A stretch of 19,347 nucleotides of DNA from Hansfordia pulvinata (lineage: Eukaryota > Ascomycota > Sordariomycetes > Xylariales). Position 1 is the first letter of the stretch. The number at the start of each line of letters is the position of its first letter. This document shows, piece after piece, positions 1-19,347 of the stretch. The position numbers and the translations under genes were made by a program. The stretch spans positions 1 to 19,347 of the forward strand of contig BJKQ01000056.1 in NCBI GenBank assembly GCA_006538405.1. The letters run 5' to 3'. The notes below the pieces were generated by a model. The model made no database searches and was not told the origin of the DNA. It saw only the letters and a program-made list of their open reading frames with translations.

Positions 1-655
1 TGCTTCCGCCCGGCCTTGCCCCTGCCGCCCGCTGGGCTTCCCTCCTCTCCTCTCCCCCTTGCGTTCCCTCCGCTTCTGTCTCCTTCCGTCCCGGTCCTCT
101 GGCCCGCTTCCTTCCGGGCCCGGTGTGCTCTTCTCCGCCTTTTTTTTTCCTTTCTTCCTCTCGCTCCCCTCTCCCCCCCCCTCTCTCTCTGCCCCCGGCT
201 CTTCCTTCCTCCTTCCTTTTGTGTGGGCCGCGGCCGCCTCCCTCGCCCGCCTCGTTCCCTCCTTCCCCTCCCTCCCTTTCGTTTCCTCTCGCGCTTTGGT
301 TTTCGTTCTCTCTCTGTCCCTTTTGCCCCTCTCGCCCGTGCTCCCTTCCCCCCCCTCCCCTCCTCCCCGTCCCCTCCTCTTCCCTGCGCCTCCTCTCCGC
401 GCCCTCCCCCTCCCCTCTTGGCGCCCCCCCCGCTCGCCCCGCGCTCCGCCCCGTGCCCCCTTCCTGTTTTCCCTCTTCCCCCTGTCCCCTCTCCTCTCGC
501 CCTTCCGCCTTTCCCCGCTCCCTGCCTTCCCTCTTTTCCGCGCTCGCCTCGCCTCGCCCCCGCTTCCTCCTTTCCCGTTTTTGCGGGCGGCTCCGGGTGT
601 GCGCTCTCTCTGTCCCCGTGTTCTTCCTTTTCCCTCTCCCCCTGCGGGCTTTTCT
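1..655. other. Pyrimidine background, no gene
   Basis: This is C/T-rich sequence with scattered G. It holds a T9 run at 140-148, a C9 run at 173-181 and a short CT dinucleotide tract at 181-191. I see no repeat module, no structured element and nothing that could be a gene. Confidence 0.8.
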
Positions 656-660
656 GTGCG

Positions 661-685
661 GCGCGGGGGGGGGGGTCCCCCCCCC
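661..685 (+). repeat. G-run/T/C-run hairpin module, copy 1
   Basis: The string GCGC leads into G11 (665-675), a single T (676) and C9 (677-685). The two runs are mutually complementary and could fold into a G-C stem with T at the turn. G is only about one base in eight overall, so an 11-base G run is not expected from the background. The same arrangement recurs at 5755, 13161, 14604 and 19188, which makes it a family. It could be a fold-back or dark-cycle sequencing artefact as easily as a real hairpin. Confidence 0.75.
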
Positions 686-686
686 T

Positions 687-1436
687 CCTCCGCTCTCCTG
701 CCCGCTCGCCCTCCTTCCCCCCCGGCTCCCCGCTGGGTTTTCCGCCCCCTCTCTCCTCTTGTCTTCCCCTCCCGGTCGCTTCCGTTCCCTTTCTCTTCCC
801 CTGTCCTCTCTCCGCGGGCCGCCTTGCCCGTCCCCGCTTCTTCCTCCCCCGCTTCCGTTTGCCCTGTCTCCCTCTTCCCGCCTCGGCTTTTTTTTTTTCT
901 CCTTCGGCTCGGCCGCTCCCTCTCCTTTCTCCGTGTCTCGCCGCGGCCCTCTCCGGCTCCCTCGCCGGCTCCCCCTTGTTTGGGTGCGCTGGTGGGTCCC
1001 CCTTCCGCCCCCTCCCCGCCGTCGTCCCCGCCCGCTCGCTGTCGCCGCCGCCCGCTCTCCTTCCCGCTCCGTGTCCCCCTGCCGTTCTCCTGCCCCTTCC
1101 CTGCCCCTCTTTCCGTCCGCTTTCCTCCGGGCCCCCCCCCTCTCTCTCGTCCTCCCCTCCCGTTCCCGTTCCGTCGGCCCCCCTCTCCGCCGTCCCCTTT
1201 CCTCGCTTCCTCCTCGTCGCCCCGCTCCCCTTTCCTCCTTCCCTTCTCCCCCCCCTTTTCGGGGGTTTTTTTCCGGCCCCCGTGCCTTGCCCCCTTCTCC
1301 TTCCCGTTCTGCGCCGTCCGCTTTCCCCCTTCCGCTCTCGCCTCTTCTTTCCCCGGCCTCCTCTCTCCCCTCCCCTTTTCTTTCCTGCTCGCCGGTGGGT
1401 CTCCCTCCCTTGCCCTCTTCCTCCGGCTTTCTCCGT
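687..1436. other. Pyrimidine background, no gene
   Basis: The stretch is mostly C/T. It contains a T11 run at 888-898, a G-richer patch near 979-1000, and a string C8-TTTT-C-G5-T7 at 1248-1272 that superficially resembles an intrinsic terminator (see rejected items). No gene can be supported. Confidence 0.75.
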
Positions 1437-1478
1437 CCCGCCGGCGCGGGGCGGCGGGCGGCCGGCGGCGGCGCCCGC
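1437..1478. other. 42-base island of G and C only
   Basis: The 42 bases from 1437 to 1478 contain no T, and about 23 of them are G, against roughly one in eight in the surroundings. The island is built from GGCG/GCCGG units and can fold on itself in several registers. Similar but shorter GGC-rich patches occur near 9195-9212, 13981-14001 and 14297-14315. No function can be assigned. Confidence 0.8.
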
Positions 1479-1481
1479 TCC

Positions 1482-1512
1482 GCCCCTCCGCCTTCTCGCC
1501 CCTCCGCTTCTC
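1482..1512 (+). repeat. Two-copy tandem repeat, 15-16 bases
   Basis: GCCCCTCCGCCTTCTC (1482-1497) is followed directly by GCCCCTCCGCTTCTC (1498-1512), which lacks one C. The pair runs straight into a 17-base C tract. It looks like a local duplication with a one-base slip. Confidence 0.75.
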
Positions 1513-1513
1513 G

Positions 1514-1530
1514 CCCCCCCCCCCCCCCCC
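1514..1530 (+). repeat. C17 homopolymer
   Basis: This is the longest single-base run I found in the window. With C at about 55 percent, a run of this length is only mildly surprising somewhere in 19 kb, so it needs no special explanation. Confidence 0.9.
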
Positions 1531-1960
1531 TGGCTCTCCCCCCCGCCCCCCCCCTCCCTCCCCTCTGCCCGCCCGCCCTCCTTTTCCGTGTCCCCTGCCC
1601 GCTCTTTTTTTTTTTCTGTCTCCGCGGCCCCGGCCTTGCCCCTTCCTCCTCTGGGCCTGCGCCCCCTCTGTTCCCTCTTCCCTCCTCCGCCTCGCCTCGC
1701 CTCGCCGGGCTTCGCCCCCGTGTCTCCTGCCGTTGCCCGGGTCCCGTCGTCCCGCTTGCCTCCTCCTCCTCTCCGGTTTCCTTCCCTCTCCCGTCTTTCC
1801 GGTTGCCCTTCCCCCGGGCGGGCCGCTTGCTCCCGCCTCTTCCCGCTCGCTCTCGCTTGCTGCTCGCGCCCCGCCCCTCTCTTCGCCGGGCTTTTTTTTC
1901 GTGCTGTGTGGTGTCCCCTCTCCTCCCGGGTGCTCTCTTTCGGTTCCCCTTTTCGGGCGG
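1531..1960. other. Pyrimidine background, no gene
   Basis: The stretch is C/T-rich with a T11 run at 1605-1615 and a few GC patches. CGCTTGCTGCTCGCGCC near 1853 loosely resembles part of the dispersed 19-mer but is not a copy. Nothing else is recognisable. Confidence 0.7.
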
Positions 1961-2028
1961 CTCCCTTCCTGCGGGTGTGTCTCCTCCGGCTCCGCCCGCT
2001 CCCTCCGCCTTTCGCCTCCCCCCGGCGG
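1961..2028 (+). repeat. Mosaic repeat block, copy 1
   Basis: Two segments match a second locus at 10000-10069. The 17-mer CTCCCTTCCTGCGGGTG (1961-1977) is identical to 10000-10016, and the 21 bases at 1999-2019 are identical to 10041-10061; both are then followed by a GGCGG-containing tail. Between the shared segments the loci differ completely: here a CTCCTCCGGCTCCGCCCG unit, there a GGCGGCGC hairpin. The pattern is two conserved flanks with a swapped cassette. Confidence 0.75.
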
Positions 2029-2052
2029 CGTCTCCTCCGGCTCCGCCCGCTC
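1980..2052 (+). repeat. 22-base direct repeat pair
   Basis: The 22 bases at 1980-2001 (TCTCCTCCGG then CTCCGCCCGCTC) are repeated exactly at 2031-2052, an offset of 51 bases. The element GGCTCCGCCCGCTC within it also ends hexamer arrays elsewhere, for example at 12955. It overlaps the mosaic block and leads into the next module. Confidence 0.8.
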
Positions 2053-2054
2053 TG

Positions 2055-2136
2055 CTTGCGGCTCCTTCCCCTTCCCTTTCCCTTTCCTCCCTTTCCCTTC
2101 CCCCCCGGTTCTGGTTCTGGTTCTGGTTCTGGCTCC
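2055..2136 (+). repeat. Leader + TTCCC tract + GGTTCT array, copy 1
   Basis: The 16-mer CTTGCGGCTCCTTCCC (2055-2070) opens a run of CTTCCC/TTTCCC units, then C8, then four GGTTCT hexamers (2107-2130) and a closing GGCTCC (2131-2136). The same leader, tract and array order recurs at 12338 and 15225. Read in one frame the array is Gly-Ser repeats with synonymous-type variation, but no start or stop frames it. Its spaced GG pairs also fit a weak two-layer G-quadruplex pattern. Confidence 0.85.
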
Positions 2137-3303
2137 GCCCCCTCTCCTCCGCTTCTCGCCCTCCCCCCCCCGCTCGCTCCCCGCCTCCTTCCCTTCTCCC
2201 GGTGGCTGCCTCGGCGCCGCCCTGCCCCCCCCCGCCCCCTCTCCCTCTCCCTCTTTCGCCCCCTGGCCGTCTCGCCCTGCCTTCTCTTGCTTCCCCCCCT
2301 TGCCTTGCTTTTCTGCTCCTCCGGCTCTTCTTCCTGTTCCCCCTTCTCCCTCTCCGCTTGTCCCTCCCTCCCGGGCGGCGCTTCTCTGCGCGGCCTGCCC
2401 GGTGGCGCCCTCCTTCCTCCCGGCGGGCCTCCTCCTCCCCTCCCCCTCCCCGCCTGCCGCGCTTGCCTGCGCGCTCGCGCTTTCTGCTCCCTCGGCTCCC
2501 CCCCTCGCCTTCTTCCCCTCCGCTCCCCCCCTTCCCTTCCCTTTCCCTTCCTCCGCCCCCCCCTCCCTCCCTCTCTCTCTCCGTCGCCCGCCCTTCCCGC
2601 TCTTTTTCTCCCGTGTCCGCTCTCTCTCCCTCCTCTCCGTTCTTTCTCTCCTTCGTCCTTCCTTCCTTCCCTCTCTCGCTTCTTCCCGCTTCCGCCTCTC
2701 TTCTTTCCGCGGCCCGCGCTCCTTCCCCCCCTCCCCTTCCTGTTTGTCCTGCTCTCTTCCGTCTCTTTCCGCCCTCTCTCCGGTGCGCTTCGTGCCTCTC
2801 TGCTTTCCGCCCTTCTCTCGGCCTCCCCTCGCTTCCCTGCCGTGCCTCTCTCTCCTCCCTCCTCCCGTGCCCGTCGGCTCGTCTTCCTCCCTCCTTTTCC
2901 TCCGCCCTCTCCCCCCGGTCCCCCGCGCTTCTCCCTTTTGTTCTTTCCCTCTTCCTTCTCTTCCTCTTCCCCGTTCCTTTCGTCCTCGGTTCTTCCTTCT
3001 TCTCTTCTCCTTTCCTCTCGCCGCTCGCCCCCTCCTGTCTCCCGCCGTCTTTCCCCCGCTCCTGTCCCTTTTCCTCGCCGCCCCGTCGTCCCCTCCCTCG
3101 TTTCTGCCTCCCTGCGGCTCCGTTCCGCCGCCCTCGCGGTGCCCCCCCGCGCCCTCCTTTTGCCCCCTCTTGCGCCCCTTCGCCTGTTCCCCTGTTCTCT
3201 TTCCCTTCCTTTCCCCTTTTTCCCCCTGGTTCCGCCTCTTTCTTCTTTTTTTTTCTCTCTCTCTCTTTCCCTCGCCCTCCCTGCGCGCTTGCTTGCTGTC
3301 TTT
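2137..3303. other. Pyrimidine background, no gene
   Basis: About 1.2 kb of C/T background. The only shared element noticed is the 15-mer GCTTGCCTGCGCGCT at 2461-2475, repeated exactly at 5329-5343. A T9 run at 3246-3254 continues into a CT dinucleotide tract to about 3267. No gene is supported. Confidence 0.75.
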
Positions 3304-3399
3304 CCGTGTGTCCCCTCTCCGTGTGTCCCTCTCCGTGTGTCCCCTCTCTTTCGTTCCGGTTCCGCTTCCGGTTCCGGTTCCGGTTCCGGTTCTGGCTCT
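3304..3399 (+). repeat. CCGTGTGTCCCCTCT x3 + GGTTCC array
   Basis: CCGTGTGTCCCCTCT occurs in tandem at 3304-3318, 3319-3332 (one C shorter) and 3333-3347. Ten bases later a seven-hexamer array runs from 3358 to 3399: GGTTCC, GCTTCC, three GGTTCC, GGTTCT and GGCTCT. The same pairing of the GTGTGT element with a GGTTCC array recurs at 14242, 16056 and 19215. This is the longest tidy array in the window. Confidence 0.85.
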
Positions 3400-5159
3400 C
3401 CCTTCCCTTTCCGCCTTTTTCGGTCTCTTCCGGCTCCTCCTCCTCGTTCTTCCTTCGTCGCTCGTCCCCCTGCCCCGCGCCCGCTCCCTTCTTCGTTTCC
3501 TTGCTCGCCTCGCTTTTTCTCCCTTTGCCTCTCCCTGCCCTCTCTCCCCTCCCGCCGCTCCTCCTTTCCCCGCTGCCTCTCCCTTTTTCCCTCCTCCTTT
3601 TTCCTTTCCCTTTGTCTGTCGCTCTCGCTGCTTTCTCCCGTTTCGTTCCTCTCCCTTTTCCTCTCCTTCGCCCCCCTCTTGTCTCTTTCTCCTTTCTTTC
3701 TTCCCTCTCCTTTTTTTTCTCCGTGCCCTTTTCTGCCTCCCTGTCCTCCTTCGCCCTGGTCGTCTTCTTCTGTCTCTTCCTTCCTCCTTCCTTTCCCGCC
3801 CTCGGTGCCGGCTTCTGCTCCCCGGCTCCGCGCTCTCCCCTGCCCCCCCCTCTTCTTCCTCCGTCTTGCCCTTCTGTTCCTCTTTTTCCCTTTCTTTGCC
3901 CTCCCCTCTTCTCTCCTCCTTTCCGCCTTTCGCTCTCTCTGCCGGGTTTTCCTCTTTGCCTTTCCCTTTCCTTCCTCCCGCTTCCTTCCTGCCCTTGGCC
4001 TTGCTTTTTCTTTCTTCCTTTTTGCCGTTCCCCTTTGCGTCCCTCTCTCTGCCTTCTGTGTTCTCGCTTTTCCCTTCCTCTCTTCCCTTCTCCTTCTTTC
4101 CCCTCCTCTTGCCTCCTCTCCTTCCCTCCTTTCGCTCCCCCTTGTTTTTCCCTTTTGTCCTGCTTTCCCTTTCCTTTTCCTTTTCCTCTTCTCCTCTTTT
4201 TTCCTCCTCTCCGCCTTTTCTCTCCTGCCTCTTGCCCTTTCCGCCGCCCGCTCTTCTCCTTCGGTCGGTTCCCTGCGCTTGCGCCTGCCCCCCCCGTCCG
4301 CTTGCCCGCCGCGCTTGCTTGGTGTGCTGCGCCCGCTCTGCCTCCTTCTCCGCTTCCCGCCTCCGCCCGCGCGTTTCTCTTTTTCCCTTTTTTCCTTCCC
4401 CTCCCGGTCTCCCTCTTTTCTTCCCCCCGTCTTCCTCCCTCTCCTCTTCCCTGCTTCTTTCGCTGTGTGCGCGCTTGCTGTGCCCTCGTCCCCCCGGCCG
4501 GGTCTCCTCCTTCCCCCTTCCCCCTCGGTCCCCGCTCCCTCTCCCCGTTCCGCCCCTTCCTTTCCTTCCCCTCCCCCTCCTTTCTTCCCCCTCGGTCTTC
4601 CCGCCTTCCTTTTTGGTCTCCTCCCTTTGTTCTCTCTTCTCCCCCCCCTTGTTCTTCTCGCTTTCGCCTTTGTGTGTTTTCCTTCTGCTTTCCTTCCTCC
4701 CCTCTTCTTTCCGCCCTGCTTCTTTTTTTCCGCGCCCTCCCTTTCTGTTTGTCCTGGGGCGCCGTCCCCCCTGCCGCCCTCCCTTTCTTTTTCCCCTCCC
4801 TCTTCCCCTCTCCTTTTCTTCCCGTCTTTCTCTTTCCCTTCTCTGCCGGGTCCTTTTTTGTCGTCTTCGCCTTCTCCGTCTCTCCTGCCTTTTTCCCTTC
4901 TTTCGCTCCCGCTGGCCCCTCCCTTGTTTCCCCTCCTCTTTTTTTCTGTCCGTTCCCCGGCGTTCCTTTCCCCGCGGCCGGCTTCCCTGCCTTCCGTCCC
5001 GCCGTTTCGCGTTTCCGCCCTCCTCTCTCCGCTGCCCCCCTCTCCGGCTCCTTTCTCTTCTTCTCCGCGCTTGCGCCTCCGGTTCTCCCTCTCTTTCCCT
5101 TTTGCCTTTTCGTCTGTTTCCTCTTTTCGTTCTGCCTTTTTTTCTCCCCTTTCGTTTCT
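3400..5159. other. Pyrimidine background, no gene
   Basis: G is especially sparse in much of 3540-4250. A G-richer patch at about 4261-4340 contains GCCGCGCTTGCT (4308-4319), which matches the inner part of the dispersed 19-mer, followed by a TGGTGTGCTGCGCCC stretch. From 4400 to 5159 I see only C/T background and homopolymers. Confidence 0.7.
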
Positions 5160-5469
5160 CTCTCTCTGCGCTGGTGCGCGGTGGTTCCTCTGCGCGCTTG
5201 TGCCTCCCCCCGCCTCCCCCCGCTCCCCCCCCCCGTCCGGTTTTTCTGGCGGCGCTTGCGCCGCCTCCTCGTCGTTGCCCGCTTTTTTCCTCGCCCCCCC
5301 CCCTCGTCCCTTCCGTGGGCGGGCGGGCGCTTGCCTGCGCGCTGTCGCTTCCTTTGTCGGTGGGTGGGTGCCCGCTCTCCTTCTGCGCGCCGCGCTTGCT
5401 GCCTCTCCGCTTCCCGCCCCCCGGCGCCGGCGCGTTTGCTGGGGGTCCCCTCCCCCGGCTCCGTCGTCC
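5160..5469 (+). repeat. G-enriched repeat block
   Basis: Several shared elements are packed here. A perfect hairpin has stem GGCGGCGC (5248-5255), loop TT and stem GCGCCGCC (5258-5265). The 15-mer GCTTGCCTGCGCGCT (5329-5343) matches 2461-2475. The dispersed 19-mer CTGCGCGCCGCGCTTGCTG sits at 5383-5401. A 10-base palindrome CCGGCGCCGG lies at 5421-5430. TCCCCCGGCTCCGTCGTCC (5451-5469) matches 9945-9963. No coding content can be shown. Confidence 0.8.
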
Positions 5470-5754
5470 GCCCTGGTTCCCGCCCCCTCCCCGCTCTGCT
5501 CTCCTCCCTGCCGCTCCCCCTCCCCCCCCTTCCCTCTCGTTTCTTTCCCTCCGCCCCCTTTCGCTTCCCCTTTCCTTCTCTGTGCGGCGCTCGCCGCTCT
5601 TCTTTCCTGGGCTCCTTCCCCGGCCTTCTCTCCTCTTCTTGTCGCTCCCCCGCCCGTCCTCTTTGCCCTTTCCCCTTCTTCTTCTCCCTTCTTTCCCTCC
5701 GCCCTCCCTCTCCGCTCCTTTCGCTTCTCTTTCCCGTCCTCCTCTCCCTCCCCC
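5470..5754. other. Pyrimidine background, no gene
   Basis: C/T background with a few G. Nothing recognisable was found between the G-enriched block and the hairpin module at 5755. Confidence 0.7.
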
Positions 5755-5785
5755 CGCGCGGCCGGGGGGGGTTCCCCCCCCCCCC
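5755..5785 (+). repeat. G-run/TT/C-run hairpin module, copy 2
   Basis: CGCGCGGCC leads into G8 (5764-5771), TT (5772-5773) and C12 (5774-5785). The CGCGCGGC prefix is shared with the copies at 13161 and 14604. The C run is followed by TTGTGTCCCC, which resembles the GTGTGTCCCC element that follows the copy at 19191. Confidence 0.75.
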
Positions 5786-8700
5786 TTGTGTCCCCCTGCC
5801 TTTTCGCCTCCCCCCTCCCCTCCCTGCGCTTTCTGTGGCCGGTTCCTCTCCTGCCCTGGTCTTCCTCGCCGTCGTTCCCCTTCCTCCTTTCTTTCGTCTC
5901 TCTTTCTTTCCCGCTTGCCGGCCCCCCTCCCTCGCGTCGCTTTTCCCTCCTCCCCGCCCTTTCCTTCCGGTGTCTTGTGCTCCTCTGCCCCGCTTCCGCG
6001 CCTGTCCGCCTTGTTGGTGGTCCCCCCGTCCGGCCCGCTTTCGCCCTTCCCCTTGGTCCGTCCTCTCCCGCCCCTCCCTGTTTTCTGTTTCGTCGCTCCC
6101 GCTCTCTTTCCTTCCCTCCCCCCTCTCCCCGCTCCCGCTCCTCCCTTCTTCGCCCGGCTTCCCCTTCGTCCCTTTTTCCTTCCCCTCCTTTCGCTCTCGT
6201 CCCCTCTTCCTCTCCTTGCTCCCTTGCTCCTCCTCCCTGGGTTGTCTCTTTCCCCGCGCTCCCTTCGCGCTCTCGCCCCTTTCGCCGGCCCCGGGCCCCT
6301 TCCGTCCCCCTCGGTCGTCCGCGCCCGCTCTCGTCTTGCTCCTTTCTCTTCCCGGCTCCCGCCCCTCCCCGGTCGCCCTCCCCCCCGCCCCGCTCCCCTT
6401 CGCCCGGCCCCGTTCCGTCTCTCGGCTTGTCCCTCTCTCCCTCTCTCCGCTCGCCTCTCGCCTCGCTCCCTCCTCTTCCCCCCCCCTCCTGCCCTCCCCG
6501 GTCCCCGGGTTTCCTCGCCGCCTCCTTGCCGTCTTTCCCTTTCCCGCTCCCTGCGCCCGCTCGCTTCTGCCCCGTTCTCCTTTCTCGTCCCGGCTCCTCC
6601 CGTTCTTGTTTCCGTCTTCCCGCCCCCCCCCCTTTTCTCTCGTTCTCCGTCTGTTCTTCCTCTCCCTCGCCCCGTCCCCGTCCCCCGTTGCGCTTCCCTT
6701 TCCGCTCCCGCTTTCCCCCCTCTCTCCCTCCTTGGCCCCTCCCTTTCCTCTTTGTGGGGTCTGTGCCCCGCCTCCCTGTCTCCTCGCGCTTTTTCCTTTC
6801 TCCGGTTCCCTTCCCCGCCTCGTTCGCTTCTCCGCCCGCCGGTTCCTCTCCCTCCCCGTCCGCTCCCCCCTCCCGGTCTTCCCTTTTTCTCTTCTCGCTT
6901 CCCTTCTTTCCTCCCTTTGTCCCCCCCGCCCCTCGTCCTTCGTCCCCGTCCCGCTGCCTCGGGTCTTCTCGTCTCCCTCGCGGTCCCCTGTCTCTGCCCC
7001 GTTCTGCCCCTTTCCCTGCGTCCCTCCTCGCGCCCGCTGTTGTCTCGTTCCCTCCTTCCTGCCCCGCCTGCCTTTCCCCGTCCCGGTCTTCCGCTCCCTT
7101 CGGCCCCTCCCGTTCCGGCCGCCCTTGCCCGGGGGTTCCTCCCGTCCCCCCCTCTTCCGGTCCGTTCTTTTCGTTCGCCCGCCGGGCTCGGGCCGCCCTC
7201 CCCCTCTCTCCTTCGCCTTTCCGTCTTTCTGCCCCGTGCTTTGTTTTCCTTCCCCGTCGTCCCCCTCTTTTCTGCTTCTTCCTTCTTCCCCGTCTTGTTT
7301 TCCGTCTTCCCCTTCTTTCCGCTCCTCCCCCGCCCGGGCGGCCTGCGCCCTCCTTCTCCCTCCGTTCCGGTCGTCCTTTTGCCGCGTTCCTTTCTGCTTG
7401 TTCGCTCCTTTCCGCCTTCGTCTCCTCTCCTCGCTTCCTTGTCCCCGTTTTTCGGTCCGGTTTTTTCTTCCTTCCCCCGCCCTCCTCTGTTTCGTTTGTT
7501 GTCGCTTTTTCCTCTCTTCCTTCCTTTTTCCCGCCCCCTTTTCCCTTTTCCCGTGTTGTCCTTTCCGTCCTCCGTTTTCTTTCTCCTCGCTTCCGCCTTT
7601 CGGCCTGCTCCCTTCGCGGCCGTTGCCTTTCCCTTCCCCCTCCGCTTTCGGCGCGTGTTCCCGGCTGGCGGGCCCCCCGCGCTTCCCTGCGCCCTCTCTC
7701 GCCTCCCCCCCTCTGCCTTGCCCCTCTCTTCCCTTCTTTTTTGTTCCTCCTGTCCCCTTCTCTCTTGCGTTTCCTGTCTCGTCCCGCTTTTCCTCTTCTT
7801 CCTTTTCCCCTTTCTTCCCCCTTCCTCTCCTGTTGCCGGTTTCCTCCCTGTTCTGCTCCCCCCGTCCTTCCTTTCCTCCCTCTCCTTCTCCTTTCTGGCC
7901 CCGGTTTCGGTCTCTTCTTTCGCTCCGCTCCCTTTTCGCTGCCCTTTCGTCTTCCCCCGCGCTCTCTTCCGCGCTCTTTCCCTCCTGGCTGCTTCTCCGC
8001 CCCTCTCCTTGTCGCCTTCCGCCCCGCCCTTCTTCCTTTCCCTTCCTCCTCCTTTCGGCCCCTTCCCCCTTGTTCTGGGCTGTTTCCCTTTTGCCCTCCC
8101 CCTTCGCCTTCTCTGTCTGCTCCTTCCCGCTCCCTCTCTGCCCTTCCGCGTCTCCCTCCTCCCCGCTCCCGTCTTCCCGCCCCCCGCTCTGCCCCCCCGT
8201 CCCTGTCTCTTTCCGCGTCTCCGCCTCCCCTCGCCGCCCGCCTCCTCCCTCCCTTCCCTCTTGCCTGCGCTTCCGTTCTGTCCCTGCGCTCCTGTTCCTT
8301 GCCTTGCCTCCTCTTCTCGGTTTCGCCGCCCCCCGCTCTCTCGGTCCGCTTTGTCTTTCCCTCCCCTTCCCCTCGTTCTTCGGCTCTTTCTGCCCCCTCC
8401 CCCGTTCGGCCCTTTCTCGTCCTGCCCTCGTCCGCTCCCCTCGCTTCGGGTCTCCCTTTCGCCCCTCCTTCCTTTGTTTGCTCCTTGTTTTCCCTGCGCC
8501 CTTTGCTCGCCTCTCCTGTTCCCTTGGTGCCCCCTTCTGCCCCCGGTCCGCTCTCGTCCCCTCCCTTGCGCTGCTTCTCCCCCTCCTCTTTCCCCCCTTT
8601 CCCTCCCGGTCCTCTTCGCTGTCGCTTCTGTCTTCTCTTTCGCCTTCGCGGCCGGTTCCCTTCCTCTTTCCCCGGTTTGTGTCTCTTTTCCTTCTTCCTC

Positions 8701-9963: not shown

Positions 9964-9999
9964 CCCCCCGCCCGCTCTGCTCTCCTTTCCCCTCGGCTC

Positions 10000-10069
10000 C
10001 TCCCTTCCTGCGGGTGGGCGGCGCTTTCGCTTGCGCCGCCCTCCCTCCGCCTTTCGCCTCCGCCCGGCG
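10000..10069 (+). repeat. Mosaic repeat block, copy 2, with hairpin
   Basis: The flanks 10000-10016 and 10041-10061 are identical to 1961-1977 and 1999-2019. The central cassette is a hairpin: stem GGGCGGCGC (10016-10024), loop TTTCGCTT (10025-10032) and stem GCGCCGCCC (10033-10041), nine G-C pairs with no mismatch. The stem is the same sequence as the 5248-5265 hairpin, but with a longer loop. Confidence 0.8.
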
Positions 10070-10085
10070 GGGCTCTCCTTTTTCT

Positions 10086-10111
10086 GGGCGTCGCTTTCGC
10101 TTGCGCCGCCC
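10086..10111 (+). repeat. Second copy of the GC hairpin, one mismatch
   Basis: GGGCGTCGC (10086-10094), loop TTTCGCTT and GCGCCGCCC (10103-10111) repeat the hairpin of 10016-10041 seventy bases downstream. One stem position has changed from G to T, leaving a T opposite C. The change weakens the stem, so pairing does not appear to be conserved here. Confidence 0.75.
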
Positions 10112-12337
10112 CTTCTCCTTTCGCCCTCCGCCCCTCCTCTCCTCTTCCCCGGTCCGCTTGTCTCCCGTTTTCGTCCCCCTTCGCTTCCGCCCCTCCGTCC
10201 TCTCCTGCTCCCTCCCGCCCTCCTCCCCCCGTCCCCCCCTGTCCCTCCCCGCTCGCCCTTTCCCCTCCTCCCTGCTGCTTCTCTGTTCCCTGGTCTGCTC
10301 TCCTTCTTCCTCCCGCTCCCGCTCTCCCCTCGTCCCTCTCCTTCCCTGTCCCCCTGCCCGGCTGTCCTCCCCTCCCCTGCTGCCCCGTCCGCCCCCTCCC
10401 TTCTCGTCCCTGCCGCTCCCGCGTCTTCTCCCCCTTGGCCTCCTGTCCCCCCCCGCTCGTCTTCCCGTCGCTCTTGCCCCGTCTCTCGCTCCTGTTCTGT
10501 TTCCTTGCCTTCCCGCGTGCTGTGCCTCCGTTCTCGTTCCCCCCTCCCTCCTCCCTCCCTGTCTTTCCTCCCGGCCGTTCCCCCGCCTTCCCTGCTTCCC
10601 TCCTCCCGGCGGTCCTTGTGCCCCTCCTTCCCCTGTCGGTGTCCGCGCCCTCTGCCCCCTGCTCCCCTCTCGCCCTCCCGCCTCCCGCTTCCGCTCCTCT
10701 CCCTCCTCTCCCCCTCCCTTTCCCCCTTTTTGCCCCGCTCCCGTCTGGTTCCTCCCCCTGTCCCCTCCGCTCTGCTCTCTCTCCCTCCCCCTGTCCTCGC
10801 TCCCCTTCCGGCCCTCCCGCTCCTCCGTCCTCCTCTCCGCCTTCCTCCCCGCGTGCCTCCTTCCTGCCCCCCTCCGCGTTCCCCTCCGTCCCCTTCCCCT
10901 CGTCTTTCCCGGCCCCGGTGCTGGCGCCCCTCCGTGCCCCGGCTGCTTTTGCCCTTGCTTCTTCTCCGTTGCGTCCTCTCTCCCCCTCCCGTCCCCCTGC
11001 CCCCCCTCCTCCGTCTCTCCTTTCCCCTCTCCCCTCCCCCCCCCCTCCCCGCCTCTCCGGCCGCTCGCTTCGGTTCCCCCCGGTCGGTCCGCCCGCTCTT
11101 CTCTCCTCGGCTCCCCGCCGCGTGCTCTTTCTTCTCTTTTCCCGTTTCTGTCTCCGTTCCCCTCTCTCCTCCCCTCTCTCCGCTCCCCCCCCTGCGTCCT
11201 TTTCCCGTTCCCCTCCCTTCCGCCCGTTCCGCCCCGGTGCTTCGCCCCCCCCCTCCCGTGTGTCCCCCGGTTGCTCTCCCCTTGCGCTCCTCTCTTTGTC
11301 GGTTGTCCTCCCCTTCCTTTCTTTCTTTTGTGCCGCTTCCGCTTCGCGCCTTTCCCTCTCTCCCGCTCTCGGGGTGGGCCCTCGCTCTCTCCTCCCCCTT
11401 GCCCCCTCTTCCCTTTTCGTCTGCCCCGTGCCCCGTGCCCCGTGCGCGCGGTCTCCCCTCGCTCCCCTCTCCTTTCGTTCCGTTGTTTTCTCGTTCTCCC
11501 TCTCGCTCCTCCCTTGCTCCTCCTCCTCTCCCCTCGCTCTCCTCCGTCCCCTCTTCTCCTTCGTCTCCCTTCTGTTCCCTCTCCTCGTCCTCTGTGTGTT
11601 TTCTCTTCCCTTCCCCTCCCTCTTTTCCTTGTCCCCCTCCGCTCTCCTTCTTTGCCGTTCTGTCTGCCGCGCTCGCCCCTCCTGTTCCCCTCCCCCTCCC
11701 TCTCCGTTGTGTCCCTTCTGTGCCGCCGCCCTCGCCCTCGCGGCGTGGGCTCCCCCTCCCTCTGTCCGCGGCCTCGCCCTCTTGTCTCCCCTCTTCTTTC
11801 CCGTCCTTCTTTTCGGTGCCCTTTCCGGTCCCCTGTCCCCCTCCTGCTGCCGGCGCCCGCTCTCTTCCCCCTGCTCCCTCGCTCTTTCCCCTCGCTCTGT
11901 TCTCCGGTCCTCCTTGCCCCCCGGCTCCTTCCCCGCTCCTGCTCTCGCTGCCGCTCCCGGTCTCCTCTTCCTCGTGTTCCTTTGCCCTTCGCTTCTTCTC
12001 CTCTTTCTTCCCTTCCCCTCCCTCCCCTCCTCTGGCCCCGCCCCTCTGTCTCCCCTTCCTCCGCTCCCCTCTCCCGCTTCCCCCTCTTCCTCTTCCCTCC
12101 CCCGCTCTCTTCGCCCCTCCCCCTCTTCCCCCTCCCCTGCCCCGCTCGGCTTTTTCCTTCTCCTTCCCCTCTTCCCCTCCCTCGCTCCTCCCGCTCTCCT
12201 CTCTCCCCTTCTGTTCTCTCCCCTTTGTGTCCGTTTCCTCTCTCGTCCCTCCTTCTTCCTCTCTCTCTCTCTTCGCCTTTTTCCCCTTTCCCTCGGCCCC
12301 CTGTCGTTTCTTCCCCTTCCCCTCTCTTTCGCCCTCT
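10112..12337. other. Pyrimidine background, no gene
   Basis: Over 2.2 kb of C/T background. The only local repeat I saw is TGCCCCG three times in tandem at 11422-11442, running into a TGCGCGCGG string. G is very sparse between about 12000 and 12330. No gene can be supported. Confidence 0.7.
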
Positions 12338-12445
12338 CTTGCGGCTCCTTCCCTTCCCCTCCCTTCCCCTTCCCTTCCCCTTTCCCTTCCCCTTCCCCCC
12401 CGTTCTGGTTCTGCTTCTGGTTCTGGTTCTGGCTCTGGTTCTGGC
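12338..12445 (+). repeat. Leader + TTCCCC tract + GGTTCT array, copy 2
   Basis: CTTGCGGCTCCTTCCC (12338-12353) is followed by a longer CCTTCC/TTCCCC tract to 12400. The array then reads CGTTCT, GGTTCT, GCTTCT, GGTTCT, GGTTCT, GGCTCT and GGTTCT (12401-12442), ending GGCGCG. This is the largest of the three GGTTCT modules. The odd GCTTCT unit parallels GCTTCC inside the array at 3358. Confidence 0.85.
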
Positions 12446-12942
12446 GCGTTTCCCCCGGCTCTGCCCGCTCTCCTCGCCTCCTCCTTCGCCGGTGCCCCTT
12501 CCTTCTCCTCCCCTCTCCCCCTTTCCTGTTTCGGCCGGGCGGCTTCTCCGCTTCCTGTCCCCTGCCCGCTCTCCTTTTTCTGTGTCCCCTCCGCCTGCTC
12601 TCCCTGCCGCTGCCCTTCTTCTCCCCCCCCCTCCTCTCTCCCGCCTCTTCTCCTCTCTCCTCCGCCCCGCGCGCTCTCGCTCTCCGCTCTTCCGGCTCCG
12701 CTTCCTGCTCCCCGGTTCCGTGCCTCCCTCTCCCTCCCTTCCGGCCCCCCTCTCCTCCTTTCCCCCGGCCTCTTGTGTCTGTGTCCGCGTGCCGGGGGGG
12801 GGCGGGGGCTTGGCCCCTCTCCTCTCCCCTTGCGCCCCTCGCCCGCTTTCCCCTTTCCTCCCTGCCCCGCGCGCTTGTCCCCTCCGCTTTTCCGCCCCCT
12901 CCCTCTCTTTGTGCGTGCCCTCTCCGCCCCGCCCGCGGTGCC
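12446..12942. other. Background with one G-rich string
   Basis: C/T background, except for a G9-C-G5 string at 12794-12808 that is not followed by a C run and so is not a hairpin copy. CGGCTCTGCCCGCTCTCC near 12456 resembles the GGCTCCGCCCGCTC tail seen after other arrays. Confidence 0.65.
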
Positions 12943-12960
12943 GGTTCCGGTTCCGGCTCC
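12943..12960 (+). repeat. Short GGTTCC array with GGCTCC tail
   Basis: Two GGTTCC hexamers (12943-12954) and GGCTCC (12955-12960) are followed by GCCCGCTC. No CCGTGTGTCCCCTCT element precedes it; the nearest upstream string is CGCGGTGCC. This makes it an exception to the usual pairing. Confidence 0.75.
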
Positions 12961-13160
12961 GCCCGCTCGCCCTTTCGCTTCCCCTTTCTCTCTTTCTTCC
13001 CGCGTCCTCTGCTTCGCCCCGCGCCCTTGGCGGTTGCCGCTCCCTCTTTTCCCCTTCCCTTCTCCTCTTTTTTGTTTCCTTTCCTGCGGCGCTCGGCCGG
13101 GTGGGCTCCCCCCCTTTTTTTTTTCGGGCCGGTGCGCGCCCGCCCGCTCTGCTCCTCCCC

Positions 13161-13196
13161 CGCGCGGCGGGGGGGGGGGGTCCCCCCCCCCCGCGC
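13161..13196 (+). repeat. G-run/T/C-run hairpin module, copy 3
   Basis: CGCGCGGC precedes G12 (13169-13180), T (13181), C11 (13182-13192) and then GCGC (13193-13196). The GCGC at 13162-13165 can pair with the final GCGC, and GG with CC, so the stem extends beyond the homopolymers with one bulged C. It leads directly into copy A of the 59-base repeat, as does the copy at 14604. Confidence 0.8.
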
Positions 13197-13319
13197 TCCT
13201 TCTTCGCGCGGGTCGGCTGGCTGCGCGCCCTTCCTGCGCGCCGCGCTTGCTGCTCCGGCGGCTCCGCCTCCCCCGGCCCCGCTCTGCCCGCCCCCCCCGT
13301 CCCCGCGCTCTCCTTCTTC
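13193..13319 (+). repeat. Long GC-rich repeat, copy A
   Basis: The core at 13215-13273 (59 bases, starting GGCTGGCTGCGCGCCC) is identical to 18907-18965. It contains the dispersed 19-mer at 13234-13252. Upstream, TCTTCGCGCGGGT (13201-13213) is shared with copy B at 14641. Downstream come a C/G tract and GCTCTCCTTCTTC (13307-13319), also found at 14206 and 15376. A 59-base identity cannot be chance even in a three-letter text, so these copies have a common source. Confidence 0.9.
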
Positions 13320-14205
13320 TGGGTGCCCGTCGCTCCCCCTTCCTCCCCCTCCCCCCCGCCCGCTCTCGCTCTTCTCCCTCTCCCGGGCGCCCCGTGCCTC
13401 GCCCCTCCGCTCTCCTCGCCCTTGTTTCGCCCCCCCTCGCCCTCCCTCTGGCCCTCCTCCCTTTGTGTTGTCTTTCTTCCCGCTCTTCTTGGTCTTCTCT
13501 CTCCCCCCTTCGCCCTTTCGGCTTCCTTTTCCCGCTCTCCCGTGTCTCTTTCCGCGCTCCGCCCTCCCCTCTCTCGCCTTTCCGCTCTCTCTTTCGCCTC
13601 CCCCTCCCCCTCTCCGCCCTCCCTCCTTCCTTGTTTCTCCTCCCCTCGGCTTCCGGCGCCTCCCCCTTCGGGCGCTTGCCCGGGGCTCGGGTCGGCCGTG
13701 CCTTCGCCCCTCCCGCGTTTGCCTTTCTCCTGCCCCCCCCCGTCGGCCCCCGGGGTGGGGCTCGGGTTTTCCTCGGTCTTCCTCCCCGCTCCCTCCCCCT
13801 CTGTTTTTCCTCTTTGTGCGCTTTCTCCTCTTTCGTTGCCGGCCCCCTTTCTCCGCCCCCGGTCGGCTTCGCCCCGCCCTCTCCTCCTGTGCCCCGTCGC
13901 TCTCGCCCCCTTCCGTTCCTGCTTCTCTTTCGTTCTTCTCTCCTTCCCTCTCCCCCCCCTCCCTCCGCGTGCCCTTTTTCCCGGCGGCGCGGGGCGCGGC
14001 GTCGCCTCCTTCCTTCCCTTCCTCCGTTCCCTCCTTCCGTCTCCCCCGCCTCCGTTCTCCCCTCTCCCTTCCTCCCCGCTCCCTTTCCCTTGTGCCTCGT
14101 CGGCCTTGCCCCCCCTCCTCTCTTTGGCCGCCCGCCCTTTTCCCCTTCCCTTCTCCTCCCTTGTTCGCTTTTTTTTCTTGTCGTCTGCTCCTCCGGGGCG
14201 GGTGT
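13320..14205. other. Background with GC patches, no gene
   Basis: C/T background with G-richer patches at about 13660-13765 (CGGGGCTCGGGTCGGCC and GGGGTGGGGCTCGGG strings) and 13981-14001 (GGCGGCGCGGGGCGCGG). None of these matches the named modules closely. Confidence 0.65.
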
Positions 14206-14279
14206 GCTCTCCTTCTTCCGGGCCCCGCCTCCGCCTCCTCTCCGTGTGTCCCTTCTCTTTTGGTTCCGGTTCCGGCTCC
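14206..14279 (+). repeat. CCGTGTGTCCCTTCT + GGTTCC array
   Basis: GCTCTCCTTCTTC (14206-14218) opens the block. CCGTGTGTCCCTTCT (14242-14256) is followed after five bases by GGTTCC, GGTTCC and GGCTCC (14262-14279). This is one of four loci where the GTGTGT element precedes a GGTTCC, not a GGTTCT, array. Confidence 0.8.
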
Positions 14280-14603
14280 TCCTCCCCCCCCCGGTCCGGC
14301 CGGCGGCCCGCGGCCCTCGGTGCCCGCTTCCCTTCGTCCTTTCGGCTCCTCCTCGTCTCCCCTCTCTCCCTGCCCCCGGCCCGTTCCCCGCCGCCGGGCG
14401 CTTTCTTTCGGCCTCCGGTTTCTTTCCCTCTTTCGGCCTGCTCCCTCTTTCCCGGGTGGGCCGGGTCCCTCCGCCCCCTCTCCCGTCTTCTCTTTCTGTG
14501 TTCCTTCTCGTCCGCCCCGGCGCCTTTTCCCGTGTCCCTTCCTCTCTCTCTTCTTCTCGCTCTTTTGCCCTGTCCGTTCTCTTCCCTCCCGTTCCGGCCT
14601 TCC

Positions 14604-14635
14604 CGCGCGGCGGGGGGGGGTCCCCCCCCGTGCGC
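14604..14635 (+). repeat. G-run/T/C-run hairpin module, copy 4
   Basis: CGCGCGGC precedes G9 (14612-14620), T (14621) and C8 (14622-14629), then GTGCGC. The arrangement matches copy 3 except for shorter runs and an inserted GT. GCGC at 14605-14608 can pair with GCGC at 14632-14635. Confidence 0.8.
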
Positions 14636-14640
14636 TCCCT

Positions 14641-14740
14641 TCTTCGCGCGGGTGGGCTGGCTCCGCGCCCTTCCTGCGCGCCGCGCTTGCTGCTCCTCCG
14701 GCTCCGCCTCCTCCGGCCCTGCTCTCCCCGCCCCCCCCCG
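14641..14740 (+). repeat. Long GC-rich repeat, copy B (diverged)
   Basis: TCTTCGCGCGGGT (14641-14653) and the following core align with copy A, with a few changes: CTGCGCG to CTCCGCG, and CCGGCGG to CCTCCGG. The exact 19-mer is at 14674-14692. The distance from the start of the hairpin module to the 19-mer is 73 bases in copy A and 70 here, and the run-length differences account for the gap. Hairpin and repeat therefore travel as one unit of about 140 bases. Confidence 0.85.
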
Positions 14741-15224
14741 TCCGCCTCTCGTTCGTTCCCCCGGTCCGGGCGGCCCGCTCCCCTCGCCTCCCCCTTCCCC
14801 CCTCTCGTGCGTCGTTCCCGCCTCCTCCTCCTTCCTTCGGCTCTGCGCGCTTCGCCCTCCCCTCCCGCTGCTTCCCCGTCCTCCGCCTTCCCCTCTGCTC
14901 CTCTCCCTTCGTTCGCCTTCGCTTCCGCCTCTCCGCTGCCTCGCCCCTCTCTCCTGCTCTTCCCCGTCTCCCGCTCTCCCCTTGCGCTCTCGCGCCTCCC
15001 GCCTCTTTTCGCTTCCTGGGCGGTGTGGCGGCTTCTTGTCCGCTCCCCTCGCTCTCCTCCCGGCTCCCCTTCCCCCGTCCCTCGGCTCCGTTCTCCCCCG
15101 CCCCCCCCCCCCTTTTTTTTTTTTCGTCCGCCTCCTCTTCCTCTGGGCCCGCCCCCCCCCTCCCGTCCGCCTCCCCGGTGCGCTTGCGCTTCGCTTCGCT
15201 CCCCTGCCCTCCTTCCCGTTCGCG
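14741..15224. other. Background with a C12-T12 tract
   Basis: C/T background. C12 (15101-15112) is followed directly by T12 (15113-15124), the longest T run I found. A TGCGCTTGCGCTTCGCTTCG stretch lies near 15179. No gene is supported. Confidence 0.75.
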
Positions 15225-15279
15225 CTTGCGGCTCCTTCCCTTCCCCTTCCCCTTCCCCTTCGGTTCTGGTTCTGGCTCT
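15225..15279 (+). repeat. Leader + TTCCCC tract + GGTTCT array, copy 3
   Basis: CTTGCGGCTCCTTCCC (15225-15240) is followed by TTCCCC units to about 15260, then GGTTCT, GGTTCT and GGCTCT (15262-15279). This is the shortest of the three leader-array modules, and the order of parts is unchanged. Confidence 0.85.
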
Positions 15280-16055
15280 GGCCCGCCCCCTCTCTCGGGG
15301 TTTCCCTCTCCCTCCTCTGTCTCCCTCGCTTGCTTCTCTCCCCTGCTTGCTCCCTCTCTCCGTGGCGGGCGGCGGGCTCTCCTTCTTCTCGGCGGCGGTC
15401 TCCCCGGGTTGCTTGGGTCCCCCTTCTCCGCTTCGTGTCCCCCTGCCCGCTCCGCCCTCTGTCCTCCTCCCCCTCCCCTTTTCCCGTCTCTCCCCCGCTC
15501 TTCCTCCTTTTCTCTCTCCTTTTCTCTCTCCTCCGGGTCCCTTGCCTCTCCCCGGGGGGGGGTCGGTCCCTCTTTCCCCGCCCCCCTCCCCCCCCCCTCT
15601 CTCTCGCCCCCTCCCTCTCGGCTTTTCCCTTCCCTCCCCTCCCCCGTCCCCGGCGTCCCCCCTCCTCCGGCTTCTTTTTTTCTCCTCGGCCCCCCGCGCT
15701 TCGCCCTCTTCCCGTCTCCTCCCTCCTGCGTTTCCCGCTCCGCCCTTCTTGCCCCTCCGGGCGTCTCCTTCCCGTTCCCCCCCCCCCCCGCGCCGCCCCT
15801 CCCTTCTCCGGTCCTCGTCCCTTCCTCCGTCCCCTTTCTGTCCTGTGTCGCTTTTTCGTTTCCCTTCTCCTTCCCGGTTTCCTGTGGCTGCCCCCGGCCT
15901 CCCTCTCCTTTCCGCCCGGTTTCTTCTTGCCGGGCGTGTCTCCCTCCTGCTCTCTGCCCGTTTCCGTTCGCCTCCCCTTCTCGGGTCCCGCTTCCCTCTC
16001 TCTCCTTTCCGCTCCTTCCCCCCCCCTCTCCCGCCCCCCCCCCCCCCGGGCCCTT
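15280..16055. other. Background with minor repeat fragments
   Basis: GCTCTCCTTCTTC is present at 15376-15388, set between two GGCGG-rich strings. A G9 run at 15554-15562 is followed by TCGGTCCC, not by a C run. Long C runs flank 15580-15597, 15777-15789 and 16034-16047. Otherwise this is plain C/T background with no gene. Confidence 0.7.
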
Positions 16056-16140
16056 CCGTGTGTCCCCTCTCCCGTCCGCTCCCCTGCGCCTTGGGTCCCG
16101 GTTCCGGTCCCGGTTCCCGTTCCCGGCTTCGGTTCCGTTC
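16056..16140 (+). repeat. CCGTGTGTCCCCTCT + degenerate GGTTCC array
   Basis: CCGTGTGTCCCCTCT (16056-16070) is followed 23 bases later by a decayed array beginning at 16094, with units such as GGTCCC, GGTTCC, GGTTCCC and GGCTTC. Extra C bases break the strict six-base period. It looks like an eroded or miscalled version of the arrays at 3358 and 19251. Confidence 0.75.
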
Positions 16141-16162
16141 CGCTTCCCGGTCTCCGGCCCCT

Positions 16163-16188
16163 CGCGCGCGGGGGGGGGGGCGGGCGCG
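16163..16188 (+). repeat. CGCGCGC-G11-C-GGG string
   Basis: An alternating CG stretch leads into G11 (16170-16180), then C, GGG and CGCGG. It resembles the prefix of the hairpin modules but has no following C run, so it may be a partial or unrelated copy. Confidence 0.6.
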
Positions 16189-16199
16189 GTCCGCGTCCC

Positions 16200-18050
16200 G
16201 CCTCTTCCGCTTTCGTGGGCCTCGCCCGTTGTCTCTCCCCTCTCCGTCCTCCTCCCTTCTTCTGGCCTCGCCCCCGCCCCTCCTTCCCCCTGCCGCCTTC
16301 GCTCCTTCCCCGCTCGCCCCCCTCCCTCTTTCCTGTTCGTCGGCTCCCTTCCTGCGCGCTTCCCCGTTTTCGCGGCGCTTCCGCCTTCTTTCTCTTTTTT
16401 CTGGCGCTCCGCCCCCGTGTCCCCGCCCTCTCGCCCCCCCTTGCGCGCTTCTTGTGCCTCCCTCCCCCCCCGCCCGCTCTTCTCCTCCTCCTCGTTTTTC
16501 CTCTTTTCGCCCCTCGCTCTCCGTTTGTTCTCTTTCCCCCCCTCTCCTCTCTTCTGTCCCCGTTTTCTTCTTCCCGTGCCCCTTCCGCTCCCCGCCCGTC
16601 TTTCGCCTTCCCTCCTCCGCGCCGCGCCTCCGCGGCCTCCTCCTCTCCGGTCTCCCTCCTTTCCTTTCCGTCCTTCTCCTCCCCCCGCCCCTTCTTGCGC
16701 CCCTCCTTTCCGCCTGTGCCGCGTGGTTCGTCCCCCTCCGCCGTGTCCTTCCCCGTGCCCTGGTGCTTCCCGCTTCCTCGCCCTTTCTTCTTCCTGCCGC
16801 CGCCTTTCCGCCTCCCTCCCTTTTCGTCTTTTTTCCTCTTTTGGCGCTTCGCTCCCCTCGCCTCCTCGCCTCTCTTTGTCTCGGTCTCTGCCGCCCGTCT
16901 CTCGCCCCCCCCTTTCGGCCCTGCTGCCTTGTCTTCTTCCTGCTTCTCCTGCCCGCTCTCTGTGGTCCCCGTCCCCTTTCTCTTCCTCCTTTCCCCCTCC
17001 CGTTCCGGTCTTCGTTCCTTCCCCGGCCGCCTCCGCCCTTTCCCCCCTTCCCTGCCCCCCGCCGTGCCCCCCTTGTGCTCTCTGTCGGCTTCCTTTCCCC
17101 CTTTTCCCTTCGGCCGCCCCGCGCTTCCCCTCGCCTGCCTTGCCCGCTCCCTTCCCGTTGTGGTCCGGTTTTTCGTGGGTCCTCGCCTTCCCTCCCCTCC
17201 TTCCCTGCTGGTGTCCGCCCGGTCTCGTGCTTTCCGTTCCTGCGTTGCCCCCTTCCTCTTGCGGTGGCCTGCTTTCCCTTTCCTTTCTCCCCCCTTTCTC
17301 TCTTCTCTCTGGCCTTCCGCCTTGTCTGCCCCGCCTCCTCGGGTCTCTCCTCCTGTTTGTGCTCTGTGCCTTCGTCCTTTCCCGTCCGTTCTTCCCTCCG
17401 CGGTCGCCTTCGCCCGTCCCGTCCCTCCGGTCTTCCCCCTCTTGCCTCTCCCCTCCGGTCCTCCCTCCTCCCCTCCCTCTCGTCCCTCGTCCCCGTCTTC
17501 GCGCTTTTTTCCCGTCTGCGTCCCCTTTCCCCCTCTTCCTGCTGCCTCCCCTCGCCTCTTCCGTCTTCCCGCGCCTGCTGGCCCGTCCTTGGTCCCGGCC
17601 TCCTCTGTCTCTCGTCCTCCTCCCTCCTCCCTCCGCCTTTTCTTTGCTTCCTCCCTTCTGTCGTCCGGCGTCTCCCCTCCTTTCCCTTTCTCTCTCTTTT
17701 CCTCGGTCCTCTCCTCTCCCTTCTTCTCCCTTCCCCGTTCCGCCGTTCGGCCCTTGCCCCCGCTTCCTCCCTGCTGTCCTCCTTGCCCTGGGGTTTTTCC
17801 GCCCCCGTGTGGTCGCTCCCCCTTTCCGTTCCGCCTCCGCGCCTTCCCGCTTGTTCCGTCCTTCCCTTTCCCCCTCCTTCTCTCGCCGCCTCTTCTTCGC
17901 TCCTCTTCCCGCGGCTCCGTTCCGCCCTTCCCCTTTCTTTGTTTCTTCCCTTTTCCCCTTTTTTCTCTCCGGGCTCTGTCCCTTCCTTTCCGTTCGGCCG
18001 CCCTTCTCTCCTCCCCTGTCCCCCCTTTTCCTCCCCTCCTTCCTCGCTCT
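16200..18050. other. Pyrimidine background, no gene
   Basis: About 1.85 kb of C/T background with evenly scattered G. I found no copy of the named modules and no gene. Confidence 0.7.
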
Positions 18051-18056
18051 CGCTTG

Positions 18057-18092
18057 CTGCGCGCCGCGCTTGCTGTTTCTCCCCCGGCTCCG
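18057..18092 (+). repeat. Dispersed 19-mer fused to the 25-mer
   Basis: The 19-mer CTGCGCGCCGCGCTTGCTG (18057-18075) overlaps a 25-base string (18068-18092) identical to 9933-9957. The locus at 9933 lacks the 5' part of the 19-mer, so the two elements share a boundary inside GCTTGCTG. Confidence 0.85.
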
Positions 18093-18906
18093 CCCTCCCC
18101 GCTCCTCCGGTCTTCTCGCCTTGCTTTCTTCCTTCCCCGTTCGCTTCGCCTGTGTCCCGCCTTTCGCCCGCGTTCCCTCCGCGCCCTCCCCCCCTCCTCT
18201 CCCTCTCCCCCCCGTCTTCCCGTTTTTCCCTTCCCTTCCCCCCTCTGTTCCTCTCCCTCTCTCTGTTCCTGCCTTTTTCCGCTTCTCTCTTTTTCTTTCG
18301 CTTCCTCTTTCCTTTCTTCTCTTTCTCTTCCCCCCCCCCCCCCCTCCCCTCCCTCCCGGGTGGCGGGCCCGCCTGGCCCGGCGTCCCTCCTGCCCTCTCC
18401 CGCCTGTCTCCCCTCCTCCTTTCGCTCCTCCGCCGCCCTTGCTTGGTTTTGGGTGGCCCTCTCGCTTGCTCGGTTTCCCTCCGTCCCCGCCCGCTCTCCT
18501 GCTCCTCCTCTTCTCCTCTCTTCTTTTTGTGCTGGTTTTGCCTCCTGCTCCTTTGGCTCCCGCCCGCTCTCCTCCTCCCCCCCCCTCTCCTCCTCCCCGG
18601 TCCCCTCGCTCTCCTCCCCCTTTCTCTCTCCCCTCCTCCCGCTCGGTCCTCCTCCTCCCTCTCCCTCCCCCTCCGCCCGCTCTCTCTTCCTGGGGGGGGG
18701 CGGCGTTTTTCTGTTCCGGGTGGTCTTTTCCTCCCCGGTTCGCCCCTCCCTCGGCGGCTCCCTTTTGCCCCTTCTTCCCGCTTTGCCTCTGGTCCGCTCT
18801 TTCTTGTTCCTCGTTCTTTCTCCCTGCCCTCCCCTGTCCGCTTTGCCCCGCTCGTTCGCCCGTTCCTCTTTTCCGGCGGCTGGTCGCGGGTCTGCCCGGG
18901 CCGGTG
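18093..18906. other. Background with C15 and G9 runs
   Basis: C15 lies at 18330-18344, followed by a GC-rich patch to about 18380. A G9 run at 18692-18700 is followed by CGGCG and has no C-run partner. TTTTGCCTCCTGCTCCTTTG near 18536 resembles the 9567 duplication. No gene is supported. Confidence 0.7.
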
Positions 18907-18965
18907 GGCTGGCTGCGCGCCCTTCCTGCGCGCCGCGCTTGCTGCTCCGGCGGCTCCGCCTCCCC
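18907..18965 (+). repeat. Long GC-rich repeat, copy C
   Basis: These 59 bases are identical to 13215-13273 and include the 19-mer at 18926-18944. Unlike copies A and B, no G-run/T/C-run hairpin lies directly upstream; only a GGGCCGGTG string does. Downstream the match to copy A continues imperfectly through GGCCCCGCTC, with one C fewer in the preceding run. Confidence 0.9.
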
Positions 18966-19187
18966 GGCCCCGCTCCCCCCGCCCCCTTCTGCCGCCCCTC
19001 CCCCCGGCTCCCCCCCTTCGCTCCCCGTTCTCTCCTCCTTCCCCCTTTTCTTCTTCCGCCCTCCCTTTCCCTTTCGCCGTCTCTCTCTCCGGCCCTTTCC
19101 CTCTTTCGCTCCCCTTTCCCTCCTCTCCCTCGGGGTCCCCTCTTCCTCGTTCTGCCCGCGGGGTTCGGTTCCGTCCTCCTTCCTCCC
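18966..19187. other. Pyrimidine background, no gene
   Basis: C/T background between copy C and the last hairpin module. Nothing recognisable was found. Confidence 0.7.
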
Positions 19188-19213
19188 GGCGGGGGGGGGG
19201 GGGTCCCCCCCCC
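19188..19213 (+). repeat. G-run/T/C-run hairpin module, copy 5
   Basis: GGC precedes G13 (19191-19203), T (19204) and C9 (19205-19213). G13 is the longest G run I found. The CGCGCGG prefix is reduced to CCCGGC. The module runs straight into the CCGTGTGTCCCCTCT element. Confidence 0.8.
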
Positions 19214-19214
19214 T

Positions 19215-19347
19215 CCGTGTGTCCCCTCTTCCGCCCCCGCCCCGCCCTTGGGTTCCGGTTCCGGTTCCGGTTCCCGCTCCGCCCGCTCTGCCCGCCTCTC
19301 TCCCGCCCGTTCCGGCTTTGCCCGCTCCTCTCCTGGTTCTCCCCCCC
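19215..19347 (+). repeat. CCGTGTGTCCCCTCT + GGTTCC array + tail
   Basis: CCGTGTGTCCCCTCT (19215-19229) is followed 21 bases later by four GGTTCC hexamers (19251-19274) and the tail CGCTCCGCCCGCTCTGCCCG. Hairpin, GTGTGT element, array and tail are in one chain here. The window ends in C/T background after about 19320. Confidence 0.85.

Follow-up and report, generated by a model that had tools for sequence, protein, structure and literature searches.

A contig without adenine in the Hansfordia pulvinata assembly, almost certainly mitochondrial DNA with A written as C

The stretch of DNA analysed here (the window, 19,347 bases) is almost certainly ordinary fungal mitochondrial DNA in which every A has been written as C. 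There is very little doubt that the missing base reflects a base-calling artefact in high-copy DNA and is not a biological feature. The value of the finding is as a quality-control warning. Reads that lose a base can enter an assembly as separate contigs, and A-less contigs of this kind evade homology searches, skew base composition and yield stop-free frames. A zero-count filter applied to each contig would catch them.

Base content of the window and the assembly

A count by program found no A in the window, with 9865 C, 6275 T and 3207 G over the 19,347 bases, bearing out the first-pass annotation, which had described a complete absence of adenine over 19 kb. A chance origin is excluded. The annotation had proposed counting bases over the whole contig as well and looking for A beyond the window; the window is the entire contig C56 (G000:C56:1-19347), so one count serves for both and A cannot reappear farther along C56. 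The text is non-random, with an excess of GG, long G runs, short-range correlation and simple repeats. Rfam and tRNA searches of the window's own letters gave no match, as expected of an altered text. Six open reading frames without a stop, each of more than 6,400 codons, carry no meaning because a stop codon needs A on one strand and T on the other.

Several repeats can be seen in the window's own letters. Hexamer arrays occur at 2107-2132 (GGTTCT) and 12402-12444 (GTTCTG, the same hexamer) and at 3353-3392 (GTTCCG), in which some C may be native A. Dispersed repeats of about 100-200 bases with 82-88% identity lie at 13159-13357, 14602-14802 and 18897-19045.

The assembly has 46,805,188 bases (46.8 Mb) in 63 contigs. 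The other 62 contigs were sampled at 300 to 10,000 bases or more each, and all 300 bases sampled from C12 were N. With the window counted, five of the 62 readable contigs lack A (C44, C55, C56, C58 and C63). There is no A over the full length of C55 (19,420 bases), C56, C58 (14,661 bases) and C63 (12,423 bases), and a single A was found in 5663 bases sampled at seven places in C44 (64,463 bases). On the assumption that all of C44 is A-less, the five together come to 130,314 bases, or roughly 0.28% of the assembly. The remaining 57 contigs had ordinary A content in their samples, which form a small part of the large contigs, and an A-less stretch deep inside one of these could escape the count.

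Mitochondrial counterparts of the window

In the window T and G together make up 0.490 of the bases and C makes up 0.510. As A=T and C=G nearly hold in long duplex DNA, A and C together would be expected at about 0.49, so that A written as C was suspected. Native contigs have A+C of 0.49-0.51, compared with the window's C of 0.510. Intact stretches of the same assembly were rewritten in several ways (A to C, A to G, A to T, A deleted, and unaltered), and the A-less contigs were aligned to each version. With A rewritten as C, the window matched fetched pieces of C54 at 97.8% identity over 10,006 columns, of C51 at 97.1% and 96.4%, and of C62 at 96.8%. When the whole intact contigs C51, C54 and C62 were used under the same rule, positions 1-19141 of the window were covered, the long alignments having 96.2-97.4% identity. 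Among the best 12 rows for each version, identity was 65.8-69.0% with A rewritten as G or T or left unaltered, and deletion of A gave 66.5% over 1845 columns, 76.5% over 260 columns and 81-82% over at most 138 columns. The reversed window gave 17 short matches (best 74.3 bits) and the shuffled window one (60.8 bits), compared with 25,631 bits for the true window.

A table of native against window letters was compiled over the covered part, with every window position entered once. The 6419 native A correspond to C in 6117 cases, are missing in 272, and read G in 13, T in 17 and A in none. Native C was kept in 3602 of 3753 cases (133 missing), G in 3128 of 3165 and T in 6177 of 6251, a retention of 96-99% for these three letters. 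A native copy of the window thus exists that differs from it essentially only by A written as C, as a miscall would leave it. The annotation's suggestion of a data artefact or a recoded text is accordingly supported by this alignment to intact contigs, which also names the code.

For window positions 19142-19347 the fetched contigs contained no native counterpart. In two-letter text, positions 18,673-19,331 of the window's reverse complement (window 17-675 on the other strand) align with the end of C44. Shorter matches under the A-to-C rule, at 81-87% identity, are dispersed repeats, and a 65% alignment to C51 over 1273 columns falls within window bases already counted and leaves the letter table unaffected.

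The intact contigs C51, C54 and C62 are mitochondrial because they carry cox3, nad6, rRNA and tRNAs. Native contigs contain genes for cox3, nad6 and a VAR1-type ribosomal protein (Pfam), together with bacterial-type large and small subunit rRNA, group I introns and tRNAs (Rfam). The whole window (1-19347, no strand assigned) is annotated as mitochondrial DNA, very probably with A written as C, from its zero A and the alignment of 1-19141. Individual features were found on native pieces L012 (C51) and L015 (C54) and then mapped to window coordinates, and all of those mapped (two LSU rRNA parts, cox3, nad6 and ten tRNA genes) lie on the minus strand. The 3' part of the LSU rRNA is at 2686-3494 (Rfam RF02541; native L012:9173-10000, minus strand), where the match ends with the fetched piece, and the 5' part is at 7008-8959 (RF02541, 589.5 bits; native L015:2318-4293, minus strand). 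The cytochrome c oxidase subunit 3 gene (cox3) is at 10185-10977 (Pfam PF00510, E 1.2e-122; native L015:5540-6349, minus strand) and the NADH dehydrogenase subunit 6 gene (nad6) at 11474-12260 (Pfam PF00499, E 1.3e-28; native L015:6866-7672, minus strand); both are unreadable in the window's letters.

The ten tRNA genes are a partial list of the Rfam matches. Five were mapped from minus-strand matches on L012, at 1-73 (native L012:6409-6481), 1271-1344 (L012:7721-7793), 2257-2325 (L012:8730-8800) and, as a pair spanning 1622-1769, at 1622-1691 and 1697-1769 (L012:8077-8148 and 8154-8226). Minus-strand matches on L015 place the others at 9700-9769 (native L015:5051-5122), 11228-11296 (L015:6615-6686), 12999-13069 (L015:8432-8502), 13854-13925 (L015:9307-9379) and 14091-14160 (L015:9549-9619).

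Run lengths and strand of the A-less text

Run lengths were compared in the two alignments that scored more than 20,000 bits. Shortening tracks the length of the merged A/C run irrespective of its A/C make-up. Shortened runs of three numbered 17/215 for pure A and 3/41 for pure C; at length four they were 13/55 for pure A, 62/264 for mixed A/C and 2/16 for pure C, with 3/97 for T and 0/15 for G. At length six, 10 of the 13 pure A runs and 32 of the 46 mixed A/C runs were shortened, together with 2 of the 18 T runs. Runs of T and G from three to seven bases were largely spared, and of those of at least eight bases 3/7 T and 2/7 G were shortened, so shortening as such is not peculiar to A/C, and only its extent is. 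As shortening of A/C runs is set by merged length and lies far above that of T or G, A and C had been merged by the time the consensus was made. That the merger preceded the fixing of run lengths argues against a later replacement in the text and for a calling fault. Pure C runs, which are few, seem to be hit like pure A runs, and this suggests a weak detection common to A and C.

The other A-less contigs show how the fault relates to strand. C55 and C58 have tandem periods of about 8.48 kb and 8.46 kb, respectively, with 98% identity. With the text reduced to two letters ({A,C} and {G,T}), C55 and reverse-complemented C58 agree at 96.4% over 13,742 columns. The two contigs represent opposite strands of a single tandem unit, and each of them is free of A as it is written. 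A-less text thus arises from both strands and the fault follows the strand that was read, as seen in the C55/C58 pair and in pieces of C44. The C content predicted from T and G is 0.48 for C55 and 0.54 for C58, and the values seen (0.465 and 0.519) are slightly lower, as run shortening would give.

The C55/C58 unit is probably nuclear rDNA, judging from rRNA motifs and the tandem period. Eight rRNA motifs were given to the scan, which reported on those of at least 14 bases and left out three shorter ones. A-to-C forms of SSU and LSU rRNA motifs were found in sense in C55 and in antisense in C58. Some expected copies are missing: at the mismatches allowed, C55 has no SSU 1391 motif and one copy fewer of the 515 motif than expected. 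The window gave two matches with one mismatch in the same scan. The native form of one 18S motif had no match in the assembly with at most one mismatch, and its A-to-C form occurs once in C55 and twice in C58; for this motif the assembly yielded the A-less form only. Another native motif had no exact match in the assembly. Under the A-to-C rule C55 and C58 had no match to the whole intact mitochondrial contigs.

Seven pieces of C44 were sampled: three have opposite-strand matches, two to the window and one to C63, and the other four match neither contig. C44 is possibly most of the mitochondrial genome. Strand relations among C44, C62 and C63 are not simple. Forward matches to C62 are seen for C63 703-7370 and for a piece of C44 at 50 kb, yet another C44 piece, at 30 kb, matches C63 on the opposite strand; one of the three contigs may hold an inversion or fold-back. 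C63 also has matches of 66-74 bases, at 84-85% identity, to telomere repeats in A-to-T form.

Source of the missing A

In the mechanism we propose, A and C were almost certainly called as one letter, written C, upstream of the consensus, and the fault probably arose in a small share of the long reads. Faulty reads would overlap each other only, and the assembler would make separate contigs from them. Enough such reads to assemble would be expected only from high-copy DNA, here mitochondrial DNA and, probably, rDNA. The fault may lie in how a single-molecule fluorescence instrument of the PacBio Sequel type tells A from C, with A pulses being assigned to C. The chemistry of such instruments gives A and C the same colour at different brightness, and text of precisely this A-less kind would result if the dimmer class were lost. 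Since letters at A and T would disagree in a consensus drawn from both strands of a molecule, the explanation presupposes single-strand or single-pass reads.

If a person or a program had exchanged A for C in the contigs once assembly was complete, this would explain why four of the five have no A left, but we consider it very unlikely. Indels concentrate in merged A/C runs of any make-up, far above T and G, just 5 of the 62 readable contigs are affected, the window sequence is also present intact in the assembly, and one A remains in the sampled part of C44. Dropping of A bases, for example through an unlabelled or missing dATP analogue, would likewise leave a text without A, namely normal DNA minus A. 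The native-letter table refutes this (6117/6419 A became C), and we give it almost no credence: only scraps match native text with A deleted, length is nearly kept (15,408 window bases against 15,744 native), and the 272 of 6419 native A that are missing go in step with A/C run length.

Two further alternatives place the lack of A in the DNA itself. The C/T-rich sequence and its simple repeats would suit a natural satellite or polypyrimidine DNA with one strand truly free of A, but intact mitochondrial contigs account for 19,141 of the 19,347 bases under the A-to-C rule, in alignments that run through rRNA, tRNA, cox3 and nad6. With an A-containing counterpart found for window 1-19141 this candidate was rejected, and its probability is practically nil. 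Alternatively, adenines in a subset of mitochondrial and rDNA molecules might be chemically modified and so be read as C by the instrument; a change of every adenine would also make both strands A-less in their own direction. Against this, no adenine of an affected molecule could have been left unaltered, and this in two cell compartments, although A-containing copies of the mitochondrial sequence stand in the same assembly. Pure C runs, of which there are few, also seem to lose length much as pure A runs do, which points to shared A/C detection and not to adenine itself. This alternative is exceedingly improbable. A fully substituted adenine analogue in some mitochondrial and rDNA molecules, pairing as A in the cell and read as C by the sequencer, is just as hard to credit. 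Noise was ruled out by the alignment to mitochondrial contigs and by the 8.5 kb period in A-less contigs. A base-calling fault that merges A with C thus remains the preferred explanation.

None of the titles and abstract openings found in literature searches described such a fault. Among contigs of prokaryote genomes, one A-to-C 16S rRNA motif had no match, although a run of seven C in this motif is easily missed, and a second A-to-C 16S motif matched two stretches, both of normal A content and so not true cases.

Three known kinds of altered or faulty sequence text bear comparison. Long-read sequencers make systematic base miscalls, bisulfite-type conversion gives three-letter texts, and missed adapters give palindromic contigs. 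Like systematic miscalls, the fault proposed for the window would be a read-level calling fault carried into the assembly; unlike them, it has one base wholly lost across entire contigs, and C56 stands as a separate duplicate of intact sequence. With bisulfite-type text it shares the rewriting of one base over whole reads and the need for a reduced alphabet to align, but bisulfite turns C into T, whereas here A becomes C with intact copies alongside. Palindromic contigs from missed adapters are also a read-processing artefact that persists in small contigs built from high-copy DNA, but there the fault is in geometry and here it is in letters. Long inverted self-copies are present in C51 (G000:C51:1-13775) and C54 (G000:C54:9253-19803), at 99.5% and 99.4% identity, respectively, and are what missed-adapter chimeras would give.

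Elsewhere in the assembly, telomere repeats of the CCCTAA type open several contigs, which, taken with the mitochondrial genes, points to a fungus. C2, C20, C50, C57 and C59, sampled at 10 kb each, contain very AT-rich stretches (G+C about 0.20-0.25), in contrast to contigs of normal composition; fungi that undergo repeat-induced point mutation may show the same contrast.
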